Of a stretch of DNA of 34,408 nt, positions 2,037 through 8,388 are shown in pieces. The DNA comes from Salinivirgaceae bacterium (GTDB lineage: Bacteria; Bacteroidota; Bacteroidia; Bacteroidales; SZUA-534), in the NCBI GenBank assembly GCA_027858735.1, contig JAQICC010000195.1, positions 1-34,408 of the forward strand. The letters run 5' to 3'. Numbering within the stretch: the stretch's first letter is position 1; every line of letters starts with the position of its first letter. The position numbers and the translations under genes are program-made. The notes beneath the pieces are model-generated. The model saw only the letters and a list, made by a program, of their open reading frames with translations. It ran no database searches and had not been told where the DNA came from.

Positions 2037-2474
2037 TTATTCTTCTGAGACAACAATTTTTTCAATTGTATCACCGCCTTTAATGGTGTCAATAATGTCT
2101 ATGCCAGTAACAACTTTACCAAAGCAAGTATGGTTGCGATCTAAATGAGACGTGTTTTCGCGGTTATGGCAAATAAAAAACTGCGACCCACCTGTATTTC
2201 TTCCCGCATGTGCCATGCTTAATACGCCCTTGTCGTGAAACTGATTGTCACCATCTAATTCACAGTCGATGCTATATCCAGGACCACCTGCACCATTGCC
2301 ATCTGGGCACCCGCCCTGAATTACGAAATTAGGAATTACTCGATGAAATGTTAATCCATCGTAAAATCCTTTTTTCGCTAGTGAAATAAAATTGTCAACG
2401 GTTTTTGGGGCATCATTTTCATAAAACTCAACTTTCATTATTCCCTTTTCAGTATGAATTTCTGCTATCTTCAT
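2037..2474 (-). CDS. ppiB: cyclophilin-type peptidyl-prolyl cis-trans isomerase
   Basis: This is a small single-domain cyclophilin of 145 residues that isomerises X-Pro bonds during folding. The active-site landmarks are all present and in order: FHRVIPNFVIQGG with the catalytic Arg, the GAGGPGYSIDCE loop, LSMAHAGRNTGGSQFFI, and LDRNHTCFGKVVTGIDIID. There is no signal peptide or lipobox, so a cytoplasmic location is inferred. The ATG at 2474 places the expected beta-strand (IHTEKGIMKVEFYE) at the N terminus. It is a single-gene unit with its own upstream -7 box and a strong downstream terminator. It is divergent from the PAS-cyclase gene, with about 105 bases between the two starts. Confidence 0.95.
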   Translation of the reverse strand: MKIAEIHTEKGIMKVEFYENDAPKTVDNFISLAKKGFYDGLTFHRVIPNFVIQGGCPDGNGAGGPGYSIDCELDGDNQFHDKGVLSMAHAGRNTGGSQFFICHNRENTSHLDRNHTCFGKVVTGIDIIDTIKGGDTIEKIVVSEE

Positions 2475-2579: not shown

Positions 2580-3809
2580 ATGACGAATAAAATTGAAATT
2601 GATAAAAGAAAATTGCAAGAGCTTGAGTTGCTTGCCACTATTCCTATATCTGCTGGAAATTCAATTTTAATTCTTGATAAAAACGGAAACATTGAGTGGG
2701 TGAATTCGGCTTTTGAACAATTATATGGTTATACTATAAGTGAATTAGATAGTTCAGAAACCAATGACAGTTCAGATTTTATTAAAATTTTGAATGAAAC
2801 AGATAAAAATTTCTTTAAAAATAATGCTTCATTTAGTTTTTCGCGAACAATACTAAATAAAAATGGAGTAACCGTTTGGATTCAGTCAACCCTTACACCA
2901 ATAAAAGTTAATAGCGATGTAGTTGAGCGTTTTATTGTTATAGAAACAGATATTACGCAGCAGAAAGAAATTGAAGATGAATTGGTACAACGCTGGGAGA
3001 ATACTCAAACCCTTACTGAGCATTTGGAATCGGTTAAAGATTATATTGAAGAACAAATAAAAGAGTTATCGGCGCAAAAAAGAGCTTTAGAGATTGCCAA
3101 GGAAAAAAGCGAAGATGTTTTAAATAAAGTTTTGCCTTACGAAGTTGCTATCCAATTAAAGAAAAAAGGCTACGCATCTCCTCGGCATTATAAAAAAGTT
3201 ACCATCCTTAATATTAATATCCGAAATTTCTTTAAAATGACTCATGATATACCAATTGAGAATTTGGTACAGCAGCTTCATGAGGTTTTAGTGGGTTTCG
3301 ATAATATATTGGAACAGCATTATGTTGAAAAAATAAAAACTGTTGGAGGAAGCTATTTGGGAGCAGGGGGAGTGCCTCTAAGAAACCGAAGCAATCCTAT
3401 TGATGTTGTGCTGTCAGCACTCGAAATACTTGGTAATATTACATCTGTAAATGAGATGCGAAAAAGTGCAGACACCCCGAAATTTGAACTGGGATTTGGC
3501 ATACATACGGGGAAAGTAATTGCCGGTGTAGTTGGCAAAACCAAACTTACTTACGATATTTGGGGCGATACAGTAAATATTGCCAGCACAATTGAGCACA
3601 ATGTGCCTGCAAATGGAATATTTATATCAGAAGCAACATATCAAGAAATTGAGCCGTATTTTGAAGCTAAACCTTCTGAAAAATTAGTTTTGGGTTCGGC
3701 AGAAGAGATTAAACTATTTGAGATCATAAAAATAAAAGATAAATTTGCCAGCGATGCTAAAGGAATTAAACCCAACAAAGATTTTACGCACATATTATCG
3801 AAGCTTTAA
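2580..3809 (+). CDS. PAS domain plus degenerate class III adenylate/guanylate cyclase domain
   Basis: The 409 residues form a PAS/PAC sensor (about 20-130), a charged coiled-coil signalling helix (about 130-180) and a class III cyclase homology domain (about 185-385). There is no membrane segment, so it is probably cytosolic. The cyclase fold is clear (KVTILNINIRNFF, EKIKTVGGSYLGAGG, GFGIHTGKVIAGVVGK, YDIWGDTVNIASTIE). By eye alignment the adenine-selecting Lys253 and Asp326 and the transition-state Asn333 are present. Both metal-binding Asps are replaced (Asn213, Gly257), and the transition-state Arg is Thr337. Cyclase activity from a homodimer is therefore unlikely. It may be a nucleotide sensor, a scaffold, or one half of a heterodimer. 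Four bases separate it from the secreted-protein gene downstream. Confidence 0.85.
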   Translation: MTNKIEIDKRKLQELELLATIPISAGNSILILDKNGNIEWVNSAFEQLYGYTISELDSSETNDSSDFIKILNETDKNFFKNNASFSFSRTILNKNGVTVWIQSTLTPIKVNSDVVERFIVIETDITQQKEIEDELVQRWENTQTLTEHLESVKDYIEEQIKELSAQKRALEIAKEKSEDVLNKVLPYEVAIQLKKKGYASPRHYKKVTILNINIRNFFKMTHDIPIENLVQQLHEVLVGFDNILEQHYVEKIKTVGGSYLGAGGVPLRNRSNPIDVVLSALEILGNITSVNEMRKSADTPKFELGFGIHTGKVIAGVVGKTKLTYDIWGDTVNIASTIEHNVPANGIFISEATYQEIEPYFEAKPSEKLVLGSAEEIKLFEIIKIKDKFASDAKGIKPNKDFTHILSKL

Positions 3810-3813
3810 TAAT

Positions 3814-4341
3814 ATGCCACAAAAATTAATAAAAGGATCCTTTATAATTTTTCTAACAATTTTAATCAATGCCAATAGTTCACAGGTAGTTGCGCAAAAA
3901 TGCAATTACGAAAAGAACGAAATCGAGGCATTAACTGAAATGGTGCTAAAACGAACTAGTCCGCAGTTGTTATGTCGAATTAGTGGGCAACCTCTTTATG
4001 CAAAAGCACAATGTATAGGAACAAATAAATATTTAAAACTGCAATTTTATAAGTTTAACGATTTTTCTTTTCAGGAAGATCGTGAAGTCGGTTTTATTCT
4101 TTCAAGTAACGAAGAATTGGTTGTTTATCCTCGTGTTATGCCTCTCGATTCTTCTAAAATGGATCAGTTTGAGAATGTAAATTCACTAATGATTTACAAA
4201 CTTACTGAAGAACAGTATAAAGCACTAACAATATACCCGATTAAGAAATTTAAATATTTTGTTTCAACAGGTTTTGTTGAGCAAGCCGTAGCCTCTAAAA
4301 GGCAAAGTGTAGTAATGAATGTTCTAAAGTGTATTGAGTAA
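3814..4341 (+). CDS. secreted protein of unknown function
   Basis: I do not recognise a family. The chosen ATG at 3814 starts four bases after the stop of the PAS-cyclase gene. A longer in-frame start at 3745 would overlap that gene and push the signal peptide inwards. The resulting 175 residues begin with a typical signal peptide (MPQKLIKG, a hydrophobic stretch FIIFLTILI, then a cut near VVAQ-KC). The mature part has three cysteines (in QKCNY, LLCRI and AQCIG) and a fourth near the C terminus (LKCIE), and a beta-rich look. A periplasmic or outer-surface location is inferred. The close spacing suggests translational linkage with the cyclase-like protein, but the two would end up in different compartments. 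Confidence 0.7.
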   Translation: MPQKLIKGSFIIFLTILINANSSQVVAQKCNYEKNEIEALTEMVLKRTSPQLLCRISGQPLYAKAQCIGTNKYLKLQFYKFNDFSFQEDREVGFILSSNEELVVYPRVMPLDSSKMDQFENVNSLMIYKLTEEQYKALTIYPIKKFKYFVSTGFVEQAVASKRQSVVMNVLKCIE

Positions 4342-4521: not shown

Positions 4522-4529
4522 TATATTTG
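4522..4529 (+). promoter_or_regulatory. -7 box (TAnnTTTG) for fbaA
   Basis: TATATTTG is a full match to the Bacteroidetes -7 element, 53 bases before the fbaA ATG. The nearest TTTG upstream (4491-4494) is 27 bases away, longer than the usual 19-21, so the -33 part is weak. Confidence 0.5.
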
Positions 4530-4582: not shown

Positions 4583-5662
4583 ATGAGTGAGAAAGTTTTT
4601 GACAAAGTAAAGCCAGGTGTAGTAACTGGAAGTGATTTGGCAGAATTATTCCGTATTGCTAAAGTAAATAAGTTCGCAATACCTGCAGTAAATGTTGTTG
4701 GAACTGATTCAATTAACGCAGTAATGGAAGCTGCAAAAGTTGTGAATTCTCCAGTTATTATCCAGTTCTCGAACGGTGGAGCTGTTTTTAATGCTGGTAA
4801 AGGTTTAAAACTTGAAGGACATGAGGCTGGTATTCTTGGTGCAATTGCTGGTGCAAAACACATTCACATTTTAGCTGAAGCTTACGGTGTTCCTGTTGTT
4901 TTGCATACGGACCATGCGGCAAAGAAATTATTGCCTTGGATTGACGGTTTGCTAGATGCTAGTGAAAAGAACTTTAAAGAAACAGGTAAACCTTTATTTA
5001 GCTCGCATATGCTAGACCTATCAGAAGAGCCAATTGAAGAAAATATTGGAACTTGTGTTAAGTATTTAGAGAGAATGAGCAAAATGGGTATGACACTAGA
5101 AATTGAGCTTGGTATTACAGGTGGTGAAGAAGATGGTGTTGATAATACAGATGTAGATACCTCTAAATTATATACACAACCAGAGGAAGTTGCTTATGCA
5201 TATACTGAATTAAGCAAAGTGAGTCCTAATTTCACTATTGCCGCTTCATTTGGCAATGTACATGGTGTTTATAAGCCAGGTAACGTTGTGTTAACACCAA
5301 AAATTTTGGATAACTCTCAAAAATACATCCAAGACAAATACAAAACAGGTGAAAAACCAGTAAATTTTGTTTTCCACGGTGGATCGGGTTCTACTCAAGA
5401 AGAAATTCGCGAAGCAATTGGATATGGTGTTATTAAAATGAATATCGATACAGATACTCAATGGGCTACTTGGTCTGGTGTAATGGAGTTCTACAAAAAG
5501 AACGAAGCATACCTACAAGGACAAATTGGTAACCCTGATGGCGATGACAAACCAAATAAAAAATACTACGATCCTCGTGTATGGTTACGTGCTTCTGAAG
5601 TTGCAATGATTGAGCGCTTAAAGAAAGCTTTTCAAGATTTAAATTGTATTGATGTAAACTAA
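4583..5662 (+). CDS. fbaA: class II fructose-bisphosphate aldolase
   Basis: This enzyme cleaves fructose-1,6-bisphosphate to glyceraldehyde-3-phosphate and DHAP in glycolysis, and runs the reverse reaction in gluconeogenesis. The 359 residues match the zinc-dependent class IIA (E. coli FbaA) type throughout. The catalytic Asp110 and zinc ligand His111 lie in VLHTDHAAKK. The other zinc histidines are His227 (GNVHGVY) and His265 (VFHGGSGS). DHAP-phosphate-binding glycines follow, and the C-terminal NMDTDTQ-like stretch reads MNIDTDTQWATW. The ATG at 4583 gives the usual N terminus (MSEKVFDKVKPGVVTG). It is a monocistronic unit, ended by a strong terminator that it shares with the convergent MORN-repeat gene. 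Confidence 0.97.
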   Translation: MSEKVFDKVKPGVVTGSDLAELFRIAKVNKFAIPAVNVVGTDSINAVMEAAKVVNSPVIIQFSNGGAVFNAGKGLKLEGHEAGILGAIAGAKHIHILAEAYGVPVVLHTDHAAKKLLPWIDGLLDASEKNFKETGKPLFSSHMLDLSEEPIEENIGTCVKYLERMSKMGMTLEIELGITGGEEDGVDNTDVDTSKLYTQPEEVAYAYTELSKVSPNFTIAASFGNVHGVYKPGNVVLTPKILDNSQKYIQDKYKTGEKPVNFVFHGGSGSTQEEIREAIGYGVIKMNIDTDTQWATWSGVMEFYKKNEAYLQGQIGNPDGDDKPNKKYYDPRVWLRASEVAMIERLKKAFQDLNCIDVN

Positions 5663-5690
5663 TTAGTTTTAGAATACTTAAAAAATATGG

Positions 5691-5724
5691 AAGCCGATAA
5701 CTATTTGTTATTGGCTTTTTTTTC
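5691..5724 (+). terminator. strong intrinsic terminator of fbaA
   Basis: The stem AAGCCGATAAC (5691-5701) / GTTATTGGCTT (5707-5717), with one G-T pair, has a 5-nt loop and runs into eight or more T. Its right arm overlaps the stop codon and last codons of the convergent minus-strand gene. Confidence 0.85.
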
Positions 5725-7423
5725 TTTTATCGGTTTTTACTTTAACAGCAACATTGTTCTTAAAAATGGCTTCGTATATAACCCGTCCTCTTATTTCCAG
5801 ATATTTAGTAACACCATGTTTTTTACCATTTTTATAATTAATCTCGCTATTTAAAGGGCCCTCTTTATACCAGGTTTTCCATAAACCATCTGCCTTTCCA
5901 TCTTTATATGTTTCAAGGCGTAACAACTTATTGTATTCATTGTAATAAGACCACTCGCCTTCCTTTATATTATTGGCATAATTCCCCTCAAAAATTTTCG
6001 ATTGATTTGCTCTCCAAGTTGCATACGCACCATTCAGTAAGCCCATATTGTAGTTTTCTTCGAGTCTGGGGTTGCCATTTTCATAATAGTACATGGCTTT
6101 ACCATGCTTCAGATTATTTTTATAGGATAAAACATAATTTCTATCTCCATTTTCAAACCATGAATTCCAGACGCTATCCATTAAACCATCTTTAAAGTAT
6201 CCGGTAAGTTCAAGCTGACCATTTTCGTACCAGCGTTGCCAAAACCCTGACTCTTTTCCATTGTTAAAATCACCCTCATGGAATTTTTGCTTGTTTTCGA
6301 AATAGATAGTCCAATGTCCGTTACGTTTCCCATTTAAATATTTACCCTTTTTCCAAATTTCACCATTTGCATACCAGTAGGTCCAAACACCTACCATTTT
6401 ACCATTTTTATAGTAACCCTCATTTCCTTTTTTGCCGTCGGTGCGCCAAAATGTCCATAGCCCATCCTGAGTGTCTTTTATAAAACTCCCCGTCATGTCA
6501 ATTTTGCTATCCTCATGCCACCACATAGCAGAGCCCGTTTTTTTATCATTTCTAAATGTAATTTTGCTCGCCATCACACCAGTAGGGAACCAGTCAATTT
6601 GCAGCCCATCTTTTTTCCCCTCTTTATATGATATTTGTAATTTGTTTTTCCCGTCATGAAACCAATAATTCCATATGCTGTCTTTCTTTTCATCGATTAG
6701 TAATCCTTCCATCTCTTTCTGACCATTTTTGTAAAAACGAGTATTTAAACCATTTTCATAGTTAATTTCGCTTCGCAGATTTCCCTCTCTGAAATAGGAT
6801 AACCATTTGCCAATTTCTGTTCCATTTTTATAATTACCCGATGACATTATTTGTCCATTTATATAATATCTCTTCCACAAGCCATTTGGCAAACCGTTTT
6901 TATAAATTCCAGATTCTTCAATACTGCCATTTTGATAATATGAAGTAAAAATACCTTCTCCGTTTTTTATTGTTTGATTTCCTTTGGAATCCCAAAAGTC
7001 AATTAAAAAAACCGAATCGTTTTTATATTGATCAGACCTTAACGGATTTCCCTGTCCGTTATATTTAGTCCAGATACTATCTTTTTGACCCATTTTGTAG
7101 TATCCCGATATTCTTGTTTTTCCGTTTGTGTAATTTTCGTAATAGAATCCGTTTAATATACCCTTTGTAAATTGGCCTTGATTTTCAATAGTGCCTTTCC
7201 TGAAAAAATAAGTAAGCTTTCCGTTTACTGCACCATTTTTAAATTCAATTTCTTGAAGTTTAACTCCTGTACTATCATAATAAGTCCATAATCCTTCCTC
7301 CTTTCCTAATTTTAAAACACCTGTGCTAGCTAATTTGCCATTTTGGTAAAATGTTTCAATTTTTTTTTGTCCATATGAAAGCTGGAATAGTATTATGAGT
7401 ATCAGCGTAGAAAGAATTTTCAT
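5708..7423 (-). CDS. secreted MORN/YwqK-type repeat protein (23 repeats)
   Basis: The protein has 571 residues starting at the ATG at 7423. The start gives a clean signal peptide (MKILSTLILIILFQLSYG, then Q). An in-frame start 36 bases upstream would bury that peptide and would lie in the promoter-like box. The rest is a chain of about 23 imperfect units of about 23 residues with the pattern G-x-W-x-x-[YW]-[YWF]-x-N-G...G-x-[YF]-x-N-G, the MORN_2/YwqK repeat. There is no catalytic domain; the C terminus is a short basic tail. Such proteins form long beta-meander solenoids. In Bacteroidota they are often labelled 'YwqK family antitoxin', but nothing here suggests a toxin partner. A periplasmic or surface location is inferred, and the ligand is unknown. 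Confidence 0.85.
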   Translation of the reverse strand: MKILSTLILIILFQLSYGQKKIETFYQNGKLASTGVLKLGKEEGLWTYYDSTGVKLQEIEFKNGAVNGKLTYFFRKGTIENQGQFTKGILNGFYYENYTNGKTRISGYYKMGQKDSIWTKYNGQGNPLRSDQYKNDSVFLIDFWDSKGNQTIKNGEGIFTSYYQNGSIEESGIYKNGLPNGLWKRYYINGQIMSSGNYKNGTEIGKWLSYFREGNLRSEINYENGLNTRFYKNGQKEMEGLLIDEKKDSIWNYWFHDGKNKLQISYKEGKKDGLQIDWFPTGVMASKITFRNDKKTGSAMWWHEDSKIDMTGSFIKDTQDGLWTFWRTDGKKGNEGYYKNGKMVGVWTYWYANGEIWKKGKYLNGKRNGHWTIYFENKQKFHEGDFNNGKESGFWQRWYENGQLELTGYFKDGLMDSVWNSWFENGDRNYVLSYKNNLKHGKAMYYYENGNPRLEENYNMGLLNGAYATWRANQSKIFEGNYANNIKEGEWSYYNEYNKLLRLETYKDGKADGLWKTWYKEGPLNSEINYKNGKKHGVTKYLEIRGRVIYEAIFKNNVAVKVKTDKRKKSQ

Positions 7424-7445
7424 TTTATTAGAGTTAAATTTTTGC

Positions 7446-7453
7446 CAAATATA
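7446..7453 (-). promoter_or_regulatory. -7 box (TAnnTTTG) for the MORN-repeat gene
   Basis: The minus strand reads TATATTTG, a full match, 22 bases before the ATG at 7423. It supports that start over the upstream in-frame ATG. No clear -33 box is present. Confidence 0.45.
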
Positions 7454-7547
7454 GGGCAATAAAATTATAAAAAACTAGCTTATACATGTAACGAAATAAT
7501 AATGTTTTCATTTTTAAAGTTGTAAAAGAATATTTTTCGTTTAACTA

Positions 7548-7579
7548 TTGGAAAAATGAAAAATATTTAATTATATTTG
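7548..7579 (+). promoter_or_regulatory. promoter of tRNA-His
   Basis: TTG (7548-7550), 21 bases, then TATATTTG (7572-7579, full -7 consensus). The tRNA begins 12 bases after the -7 box, so transcription starts almost at the 5' end of the tRNA. Confidence 0.6.
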
Positions 7580-7591
7580 CGCTCGCAAAAT

Positions 7592-7666
7592 GGTGGATGT
7601 AGTTCAGTTGGTTAGAACGCTAGATTGTGGTTCTAGAGGTCGCCGGTTCAAATCCGGTCTTCCACC
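7592..7666 (+). tRNA. tRNA-His (GTG)
   Basis: The cloverleaf can be drawn by hand. The anticodon stem is CTAGA/TCTAG around the loop TTGTGGT, with anticodon GTG at 7627-7629. The T arm GCCGG-TTCAAAT-CCGGT closes with one G-T pair. The acceptor is GTGGATG/CTTCCAC with one T-T mismatch. The extra G(-1) at 7592 opposite C73 at 7666 is the identity element specific to tRNA-His. The 3' CCA is not encoded (CAA follows). A strong terminator follows nine bases later. Confidence 0.95.
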
Positions 7667-7674
7667 CAAAAGAA

Positions 7675-7703
7675 AAGGTTTCGATCTAATCGAAGCTTTT
7701 TTT
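7675..7703 (+). terminator. intrinsic terminator of tRNA-His
   Basis: The stem AAGGTTTCGAT (7675-7685) / ATCGAAGCTTT (7689-7699), with two wobble pairs and a CTA loop, runs into seven T (7697-7703). Confidence 0.8.
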
Positions 7704-7734
7704 GTTTAAGCTGGTTATTGTTAGAAATAATGTC

Positions 7735-8388
7735 ATGGGTGAATCAAAAGTTACTGAAATTATCGAAAAAGTAAAACATCTTCAAAACGGCGATGTGTCT
7801 ACTGCAATGCAAAATATGGGGTTAACATATGAGCTTAACTACGGAGTTTCTATACCCCAGCTCTCGGAGCTTGCTTCAGCTTACAATGCAGATAATGAGT
7901 TAGCCTATGTTTTGTTAAGTAATGAAATTAGAGAAGCGAAAATTTTGGCATCTATGTTATTCGATGTTAGCAAAATATCAATCGATCAAATATTATCAAT
8001 TAGTACAGCTATAAATAATATAGAATTGGTTGAACAGTTTTCCAGAAATGTATTTGCAAAGTCTTCCGATCTTGATGTTGCACTTCCAATTTTAATAGAT
8101 ATTGATTATTGGCAGCAATTAGCAGCAATTTATTCAGCCGGTTGGGCTTTAAAAAAGAACAAAGACGAAAACTCAGAAATAGTTAATTGGAGTAAATACA
8201 CAATATCTAAATATTTAGAAAGTGAGGATAGGCATTTTCAGAAATCTATAGTATTTCTATTTCAATGTTTAATAGCCATAAATAATGAAACAAGGAAAGA
8301 AATGGTAAATTTGGCAGAGAAATTAGCAAAAAGTGAAAATTTATCAGTACAAAAGTTGGCACAAGAATTATTGTGGATAAGTGCATAA
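7735..8388 (+). CDS. AlkD-like HEAT-repeat protein, active-site residues changed
   Basis: The ATG at 7735 gives 217 residues; a TTG 33 bases earlier lies inside the tRNA terminator and is rejected. The protein is all-helical HEAT-like and aligns by eye with DNA alkylation repair (AlkD) proteins: YGVSIPQLSELASAY, then EIREAKILASMLF, then NNIELVEQF, then DIDYWQQLAAI, then HFQKSIVFLF. In AlkD these stretches hold Trp109/Asp113, Arg148 and Trp187. Here they are Asn/Ile and Glu100, Leu129 and Phe174. Glycosylase activity of the AlkD kind is therefore doubtful. It may bind DNA or protein through the HEAT face instead. The start lies 32 bases after the tRNA-His terminator and no separate promoter is evident. 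Confidence 0.65.
   Translation: MGESKVTEIIEKVKHLQNGDVSTAMQNMGLTYELNYGVSIPQLSELASAYNADNELAYVLLSNEIREAKILASMLFDVSKISIDQILSISTAINNIELVEQFSRNVFAKSSDLDVALPILIDIDYWQQLAAIYSAGWALKKNKDENSEIVNWSKYTISKYLESEDRHFQKSIVFLFQCLIAINNETRKEMVNLAEKLAKSENLSVQKLAQELLWISA

Follow-up and report, generated by a model that had tools for sequence, protein, structure and literature searches.

A PAS-linked cyclase-fold protein without metal-binding aspartates or catalytic arginine: a probable pseudo-cyclase conserved in two families of Bacteroidota

Introduction

The usual view of bacterial class III cyclases is that they are symmetric homodimers. The gene described here, P0001, raises the question of what a class III cyclase domain might do once residues needed for catalysis have been replaced. 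It was found in a stretch of 34,408 nt from a Salinivirgaceae bacterium (assembly GCA_027858735.1, contig JAQICC010000195.1, positions 1 to 34,408), which as a whole is referred to below as the window. The original prediction, made by eye from the sequence, was that the PAS-linked cyclase domain of its product lacks both metal Asps and the transition-state Arg while keeping the adenine pocket, and that the protein is a nucleotide-binding signalling domain, or needs a C1-like partner, or is dead. The features to which we refer are as follows.

2037..2474, - strand: cyclophilin-type PPIase, divergent neighbour (PF00160)
2580..3809, + strand: pseudo-cyclase gene P0001 (PAS, coiled coil, cyclase-fold domain), 409 aa, open frame with ATG start; Pfam, orthologues
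2658..2960, + strand: PAS domain, residues 27-127 (PF13426, PAS_9, 51 bits; TIGR00229)
2961..3182, + strand: long helix (predicted 126-184) and pre-cyclase element, residues 128-201; predicted model, conservation
3183..3692, + strand: degenerate class III cyclase domain, residues 202-371; PF00211, structure match
3216..3218, + strand: Asn213, replacing the first metal Asp; alignments
3336..3338, + strand: Lys253, retained adenine-pocket Lys (K in 10/10 orthologues and 37/37 intact relatives)
3348..3350, + strand: Gly257, replacing the second metal Asp (G in 10/10 orthologues, D in 37/37 intact relatives)
3555..3557, + strand: Asp326, retained adenine-pocket Asp (D in 10/10 orthologues and 37/37 intact relatives)
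3576..3578, + strand: Asn333, retained (N in 9/10 orthologues, Thr in G001; N in 37/37 intact relatives)
3588..3590, + strand: Thr337, replacing the transition-state Arg (T, T, T, T, T, A, A, L, Q, Q in orthologues; R in 35/37 intact relatives)
3814..4341, + strand: small-protein gene, signal-peptide-like N-terminus (by eye), starting 4 nt past the pseudo-cyclase stop
4583..5662, + strand: class II fructose-bisphosphate aldolase (PF01116), 241 nt past the small-protein gene

Results

Active site and fold of P0001

Pfam places a PAS_9 domain at residues 27-127 of P0001, in keeping with the predicted attachment to a PAS sensor, and the profile check proposed with the original prediction returned a Guanylate_cyc domain (PF00211) at residues 202-371, scoring 109.7 bits against a cut-off of 21.9 bits. 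With such a score to the Pfam cyclase model, P0001-like genes could easily be mis-annotated as adenylate cyclases. In an alignment with both halves of human AC9, the second metal site is Gly257 in P0001, Asp in C1 and Ala in C2, the Lys site is Lys253, Ser and Lys, respectively, and the Arg site is Thr337, Leu and Arg; at the Asp site (Asp326) and the Asn site (Asn333) all three sequences have Asp and Asn, respectively. Asn213 stands opposite the C1 Asp at the first metal site, near which the C2 alignment is gapped. The placing of the metal Asps at Asn213 and Gly257 thus agrees with AC9, and both positions are Asp in 37/37 intact relatives; likewise Thr337, taken for the site of the transition-state Arg, lies opposite the C2 Arg, and each of the three residues said to be retained lies opposite its C2 counterpart. 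The pattern, with the metal residues lost and Lys, Asp and Asn kept, is that of C2, but without the C2 Arg, as had been proposed.

An AlphaFold model of P0001 (53 alignment rows), whose pLDDT averages 89.3 overall and about 95 across the cyclase domain, has its elements at the expected sites, namely a strand at 202-215, strands at 249-255 and 258-263, a strand at 324-328 and a helix at 330-341; the VIA-align rows span mainly model residues 127-389 and barely cover the PAS part. The model matches CyaB (3r5g_A) with a Z of 26.6 and an rmsd of 1.5 Å over 190 residues, Z ranges from 21.8 to 26.6 across the 50 matches to solved cyclases listed, and Foldseek also matches cyclases. Intact Asps lying elsewhere in the structure would have overturned the assignments made by eye, but the elements of the predicted model fit them. 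No replacement acidic residue was seen, there being neither Asp nor Glu in the five columns specific to the clade relative to 37 intact relatives; Glu245 (10/10) and Glu303 (9/10) are commoner in the clade, yet also occur in intact relatives. Position 372 is Lys in 34/37 intact relatives and Gly in P0001, and on our own reading this Lys would be the counterpart of Lys1065 of AC C2, which binds phosphate according to the available part of PMC3591389. P0001 scores 54.5 bits to VC1 and 53.6 to IIC2, the corresponding scores of L002, an intact paralogue in the same genome, being 84.7 and 72.1.

Compared with an active class III cyclase, P0001 has the fold, by profile and by predicted structure, and the adenine Lys and Asp, and lacks the two metal Asps and the complete transition-state pair of Asn and Arg. 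Judged from its residues, a domain deprived of the metal and triphosphate half of the active site and of the Arg should not make cAMP, and the P0001 homodimer is very probably inactive as a catalyst.

Distribution and conservation

Orthologues of P0001 were found in 11 of 26 genomes of two Bacteroidota families, its own genome counted. Seven other genomes of its own family carry full-length orthologues that are 54-65% identical (8/20 with its own); orthologues also occur in 3/6 genomes of the second family (f89). In a sample of 393 genomes of the order, in which residues were read just for the returned loci, four of the 11 carriers were recognized (G000, G019, G107 and G208). The tree and the column counts cover the first ten orthologues, the eleventh (G408) having been aligned later. 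Asn213, Gly257, Lys253 and Asp326 are present in 11/11 orthologues and Asn333 in 10/11 (Thr in G001), while position 337, varying between Thr, Ala, Leu and Gln, is Arg in none; the survey of positions 213, 257 and 337 that had been suggested therefore found the two metal-site replacements fixed. The 37 intact relatives show no variation at positions 213, 257, 253, 326 and 333, and 35 of them have Arg at 337.

The first ten orthologues form one clade (support 100/99). In five of 240 columns at least 9/10 clade members share one residue and at least 80% of the 37 intact relatives share a different one, and both metal sites are among the five; positions 337 and 372 vary within the clade. Given that new residues have become fixed at the metal sites and positions 337 and 372 drift, we infer replacement in the first case and, for the Arg and the Lys, a loss of function. 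Similarity to P0001 gave a set of 134 distinct cyclase domains, all complete, from which duplicates, incomplete rows and rows of <26% identity had been removed. Of these, 106 read D,D,K,D,N,R (first and second metal Asp, Lys, Asp, Asn, Arg) and 12 read D,D,R,D,N,R; the pseudo-cyclases account for 10 and other variants for six, and both metal Asps are absent only in the 10 pseudo-cyclases. The residue pattern is more than chance, because it recurs in 11 genomes.

Estimates of dN/dS (Nei-Gojobori) could be used for two pairs, whole-gene dS being >2 or not computable in three others. For G003/G004 the ratio is 0.072 over the whole gene and 0.064 over the cyclase domain, and for G107/G208 it is 0.141 and 0.133. 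The stretch 131-201 gives 0.015 and 0.111, respectively, and 16/30 of residues 172-201 are invariant in the 10 orthologues, as are 47/170 residues of the cyclase domain. We read the low values at 131-201 as selection on relaying the PAS signal to the cyclase fold. Frames are intact in 11 genomes, and with these cyclase-domain ratios P0001 does not look like a pseudogene; it is almost certainly functional rather than decaying.

Gene neighbourhood

The small-protein gene lies directly downstream of the pseudo-cyclase gene in 11/11 carriers and its product, judged by eye from the N-terminus, is apparently secreted, so that the link to a secreted-protein gene noted in the original prediction is a general one. 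Gaps, counted by hand from the first in-frame ATG, are 4, 5, 5, 5, 5, 16, 3 and 2 nt in the 8/8 carriers of the own family, about 102 nt in G107 and about 94 nt in G208. Because of the spacing between them the two genes are likely to be co-transcribed. Motifs of the form TAnnTTTG, which we take to be the Bacteroidota promoter element, occur at 3740, inside the pseudo-cyclase gene, and at 4522, before the aldolase gene, and the former could be a candidate promoter of the small-protein gene itself. Neither Pfam nor NCBIfam gave a match to the small protein, and predicting its fold from the single sequence produced no usable model (mean pLDDT 36.6).

The aldolase gene follows the small-protein gene in 9/10 carriers looked at, the contig ending in the tenth, and the PPIase gene is upstream of the pseudo-cyclase gene in 8/8 carriers of the own family; the stretches from G107 and G208 showed no such gene. 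Compared with the pseudo-cyclase gene, the small-protein gene has the broader distribution, occurring in 20/20 genomes of the own family and in 12/393 of the order sample. Where the pseudo-cyclase gene is absent, the small-protein gene adjoins the PPIase gene (11/11 genomes of genus g6, and G360, G295, G231 and G376), although no PPIase gene was seen beside it in the G006 and G133 stretches. From this adjacency the pseudo-cyclase gene is, in its own family, a variable element between two neighbours. Further along the window, at 5708-7459 on the - strand, lies a gene for a 583-aa protein of MORN_2 repeats; three relatives (L156, L157 and L159) likewise have it past the aldolase gene.

Related forms and origin

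G360 has an intact single-PAS cyclase (D,D,R) of equal length (L133). A related form with N213, Asp257 and Asn instead of the Arg is found in G295 and G409; that of G295, which additionally has a receiver domain, is the sister of the pseudo-cyclase clade with moderate support (87/76), and that of G409 is outside the tree. From its residues this form looks like an intermediate, and it fits a stepwise loss in which the first metal Asp and the Arg were lost before the second metal Asp. Descent in both families is most simply read as vertical.

Cyclase paralogues in carrier genomes

The genome of P0001 has five PF00211 genes. At the six sites L001 and L002 read D,D,K,D,N,R, L003, in which the cyclase is combined with an HD domain, reads N,D,K,E,N,R, and L005 reads D,D,N,S,N,R. 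Among the ten carriers inventoried, from which G408 (66% complete) was left out, eight have an intact D,D,K,D,N,R paralogue; the genomes of the other two, G003 and G208, are 65% and 88% complete, which weakens absences there. G007 (96% complete) yielded no gene of the 541-aa single-PAS type (L002), and G107 (98% complete) none of the double-PAS type (L001). L005 (955-2040, contig C397) has both metal Asps, the Asn and the Arg, with Asn and Ser replacing the adenine Lys and Asp. Genes of its type occur in 5/8 carriers and 0/12 non-carriers of the own family; they were not found in the carriers G002 (100% complete), G003 and G004, nor among the PF00211 matches of G107 and G208, and relatives at 51-57% identity are present in G231, G254 and G299, from other families. 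This distribution favours a link with the pseudo-cyclase, but it is confounded by ancestry and rests on one family split. As obligate partners, the L001, L002 and L005 types were all rejected, each being missing from at least one carrier of at least 96% completeness. Since 8-15 cNMP-binding domains per genome were found in the seven carriers searched, cAMP effectors are likely to be present in carriers, without a tie to P0001; the non-carrier G010 has two such domains.

L003 (820-2709, contig C279) is a second degenerate cyclase, in which Asn has replaced the first metal Asp and Glu the adenine Asp. Its type is present in 9/10 inventoried carriers and was not found in G004 (90% complete). The first metal site of these cyclase-HD proteins is Asn in 9/9 carriers and Asp in 31/35 non-carriers (exceptions: Asn in G006, G133 and G312, Ser in G174, the last being grouped with the Asn rows in the contrasts), including 11/11 g6 genomes; outside the own family the comparison covers the best 30 loci and a few fetched regions, and the tree leaves out G295 (L253) and the second G360 protein (L272), the second G295 locus (L270) having no row. 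As there are two independent contrasts on starred branches, or three on all, the apparent tracking of the pseudo-cyclase by this Asp loss proves nothing.

Other unusual cyclases came to light in the same searches. The G295 locus L253 encodes a large cyclase-like protein whose domain is likewise degenerate, the six sites reading E,N,K,N,N,R. Locus L064 of Ignavibacteriales UBA6490 (DJMM01000002.1, about 5566-6631 and 6726-7851) has two adjacent cyclase genes, each of which, judged by eye, starts with a receiver-like sequence, and their losses are complementary: in the first both metal Asps are present and the Arg is Leu, and in the second the Lys, Asp, Asn and Arg are present and the second metal Asp is Ala, so that this tandem pair looks like a bacterial C1/C2 split. 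Finally, 12 loci between L042 and L065, from Bacteroidales and related contigs, encode cyclases of about 450-516 aa with Arg for the adenine Lys (the 12 distinct D,D,R,D,N,R domains), lying about 4 kb before a Lys-bearing cyclase.

Discussion

P0001 shares with the PAS-linked PF00211 cyclases of Bacteroidota, such as L001 and L002, the fold, the PAS-helix-cyclase order, the adenine Lys and Asp and the Asn, but differs in lacking both metal Asps, the Arg and the Lys at 372. It also resembles the C2 half of mammalian transmembrane cyclases, in which, as seen in AC9, the second metal Asp is absent and the adenine-side Lys, Asp and Asn are kept; C2, however, retains the Arg and has a C1 half fused to it, whereas the P0001 domain is PAS-linked and stands alone. 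NeoR, of the fungal rhodopsin-guanylyl cyclase heterodimers, is a naturally inactive subunit that like P0001 is without the Arg of the NxxxR motif, but the part of PMC12264004 available to us describes it as retaining the metal Asps and lacking both Asn and Arg (T455 and K459), while P0001 has lost the metal residues and kept the Asn. P0001 is accordingly not of the NeoR type, defined by retained metal Asps and a lost NxxxR. Catalytic residues are likewise missing from degenerate class III cyclases of actinobacteria, whose family and domain context differ (PMC2447327, in the part available), and from the single-Asp DUF2652 proteins, which keep at least one metal Asp and again differ in family and context (PMC4886424, also in part). 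Degenerate class III cyclases as a kind are thus already known; as far as our literature search could show, the family described here, its fixed metal-site replacements, the apparent intermediate and the gene link are new. That search recognized no paper on the pseudo-cyclase family, which is weak evidence since subscription journals were mostly outside its coverage.

What such a protein does can be approached through the readings that its residues allow. A nucleotide sensor, in which the adenine pocket of a homodimer binds ATP, AMP, adenosine or cAMP without turnover and the PAS domain and ligand together set its state, would explain why Lys253 and Asp326 are invariant in 11/11 orthologues and Asn333 is kept in 10/11 while positions 337 and 372 drift, a split to be expected if base binding is still selected. 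With the triphosphate side gone (N213, G257, T337 and no Lys at 372), however, a low affinity for ATP is to be expected, and Lys253 and Asp326 sit in wholly conserved stretches (EKIK and YDIWGD) and may be structural; we consider it unlikely that P0001 acts as an adenine-nucleotide sensor. The loss of the metal residues with retention of Lys, Asp and Asn is equally what a C2-like catalytic partner would have, lending these three residues to a metal-supplying C1-like subunit so as to form one active heterodimeric site. The search for such a subunit yielded L005, a C1-pattern gene with metal Asps and without the Lys and Asp, found in the own genome and in 5/8 carriers but no non-carrier of the family, and two inactive subunits can form an active pair (RGC2-cat/NeoR-cat, in the portion of PMC12264004 available). 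The L005 type was nevertheless not found in several carriers and is present in other families, L005 is only distantly similar in sequence and retains an Asn and an Arg itself, and the score shift of P0001 towards C2 is small. The Arg that C2 supplies is absent in 11/11 orthologues; because the shared site would still lack it (T337), a C1-like catalytic partner is unsupported, and this reading is very unlikely.

Even less can be said for plain decay, in which a dead domain on its way to loss would be retained for the PAS domain or by chance. The catalytic Arg site does vary (T, A, L, Q), and no orthologue was found in 12/20 genomes of the own family, but intact frames, Asn and Gly fixed at the metal sites, the low cyclase-domain dN/dS and the many invariant residues all speak against it, and we regard decay as extremely unlikely. 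The original suggestion that the protein may be dead therefore very probably holds for the catalytic activity of the homodimer, on account of the residue losses, and falls in the sense of meaningless decay.

Our working hypothesis is that P0001 is probably a conserved pseudo-cyclase under PAS control, acting by dimerization without catalysis. The PAS domain would sense a signal and relay it through the long helix into the cyclase-fold domain, which would serve as a PAS-switched dimerization partner; the retained motifs presumably lie at the dimer face of known cyclases. The most likely route would be pairing with an intact PAS-cyclase paralogue, giving a heterodimer in which one site lacks the Arg and the other the metals, so that cAMP synthesis would be damped or gated, and the downstream secreted protein would be part of the same response. 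That P0001 acts by pairing with an intact cyclase is a tentative proposal, whose chances we put somewhat short of even. If it does, the heterodimer would more likely be regulatory or poisoned than productive, because with P0001 on the base side every pair would be missing the Arg, a residue described as essential (Yan et al. 1997, as cited in the available part of PMC12264004). In NeoR/RGC1, the same partial source reports, disrupting the non-catalytic site raised activity ninefold, a precedent for regulation through such a site. A fuller scheme, doubtful when taken as a whole, would have P0001 gate cAMP synthesis through asymmetric, poisoned or allosteric heterodimers under PAS control, thereby controlling the co-transcribed secreted protein, and would have it kept since the common ancestor of the two families.

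If this were true, bacteria would have in P0001 a separate protein equivalent to the regulatory site found in mammalian cyclases. With the metal and phosphate half of the active site lost, the adenine half kept and an apparent intermediate at hand, the family offers a natural experiment on the origin of asymmetric or regulatory cyclase subunits.
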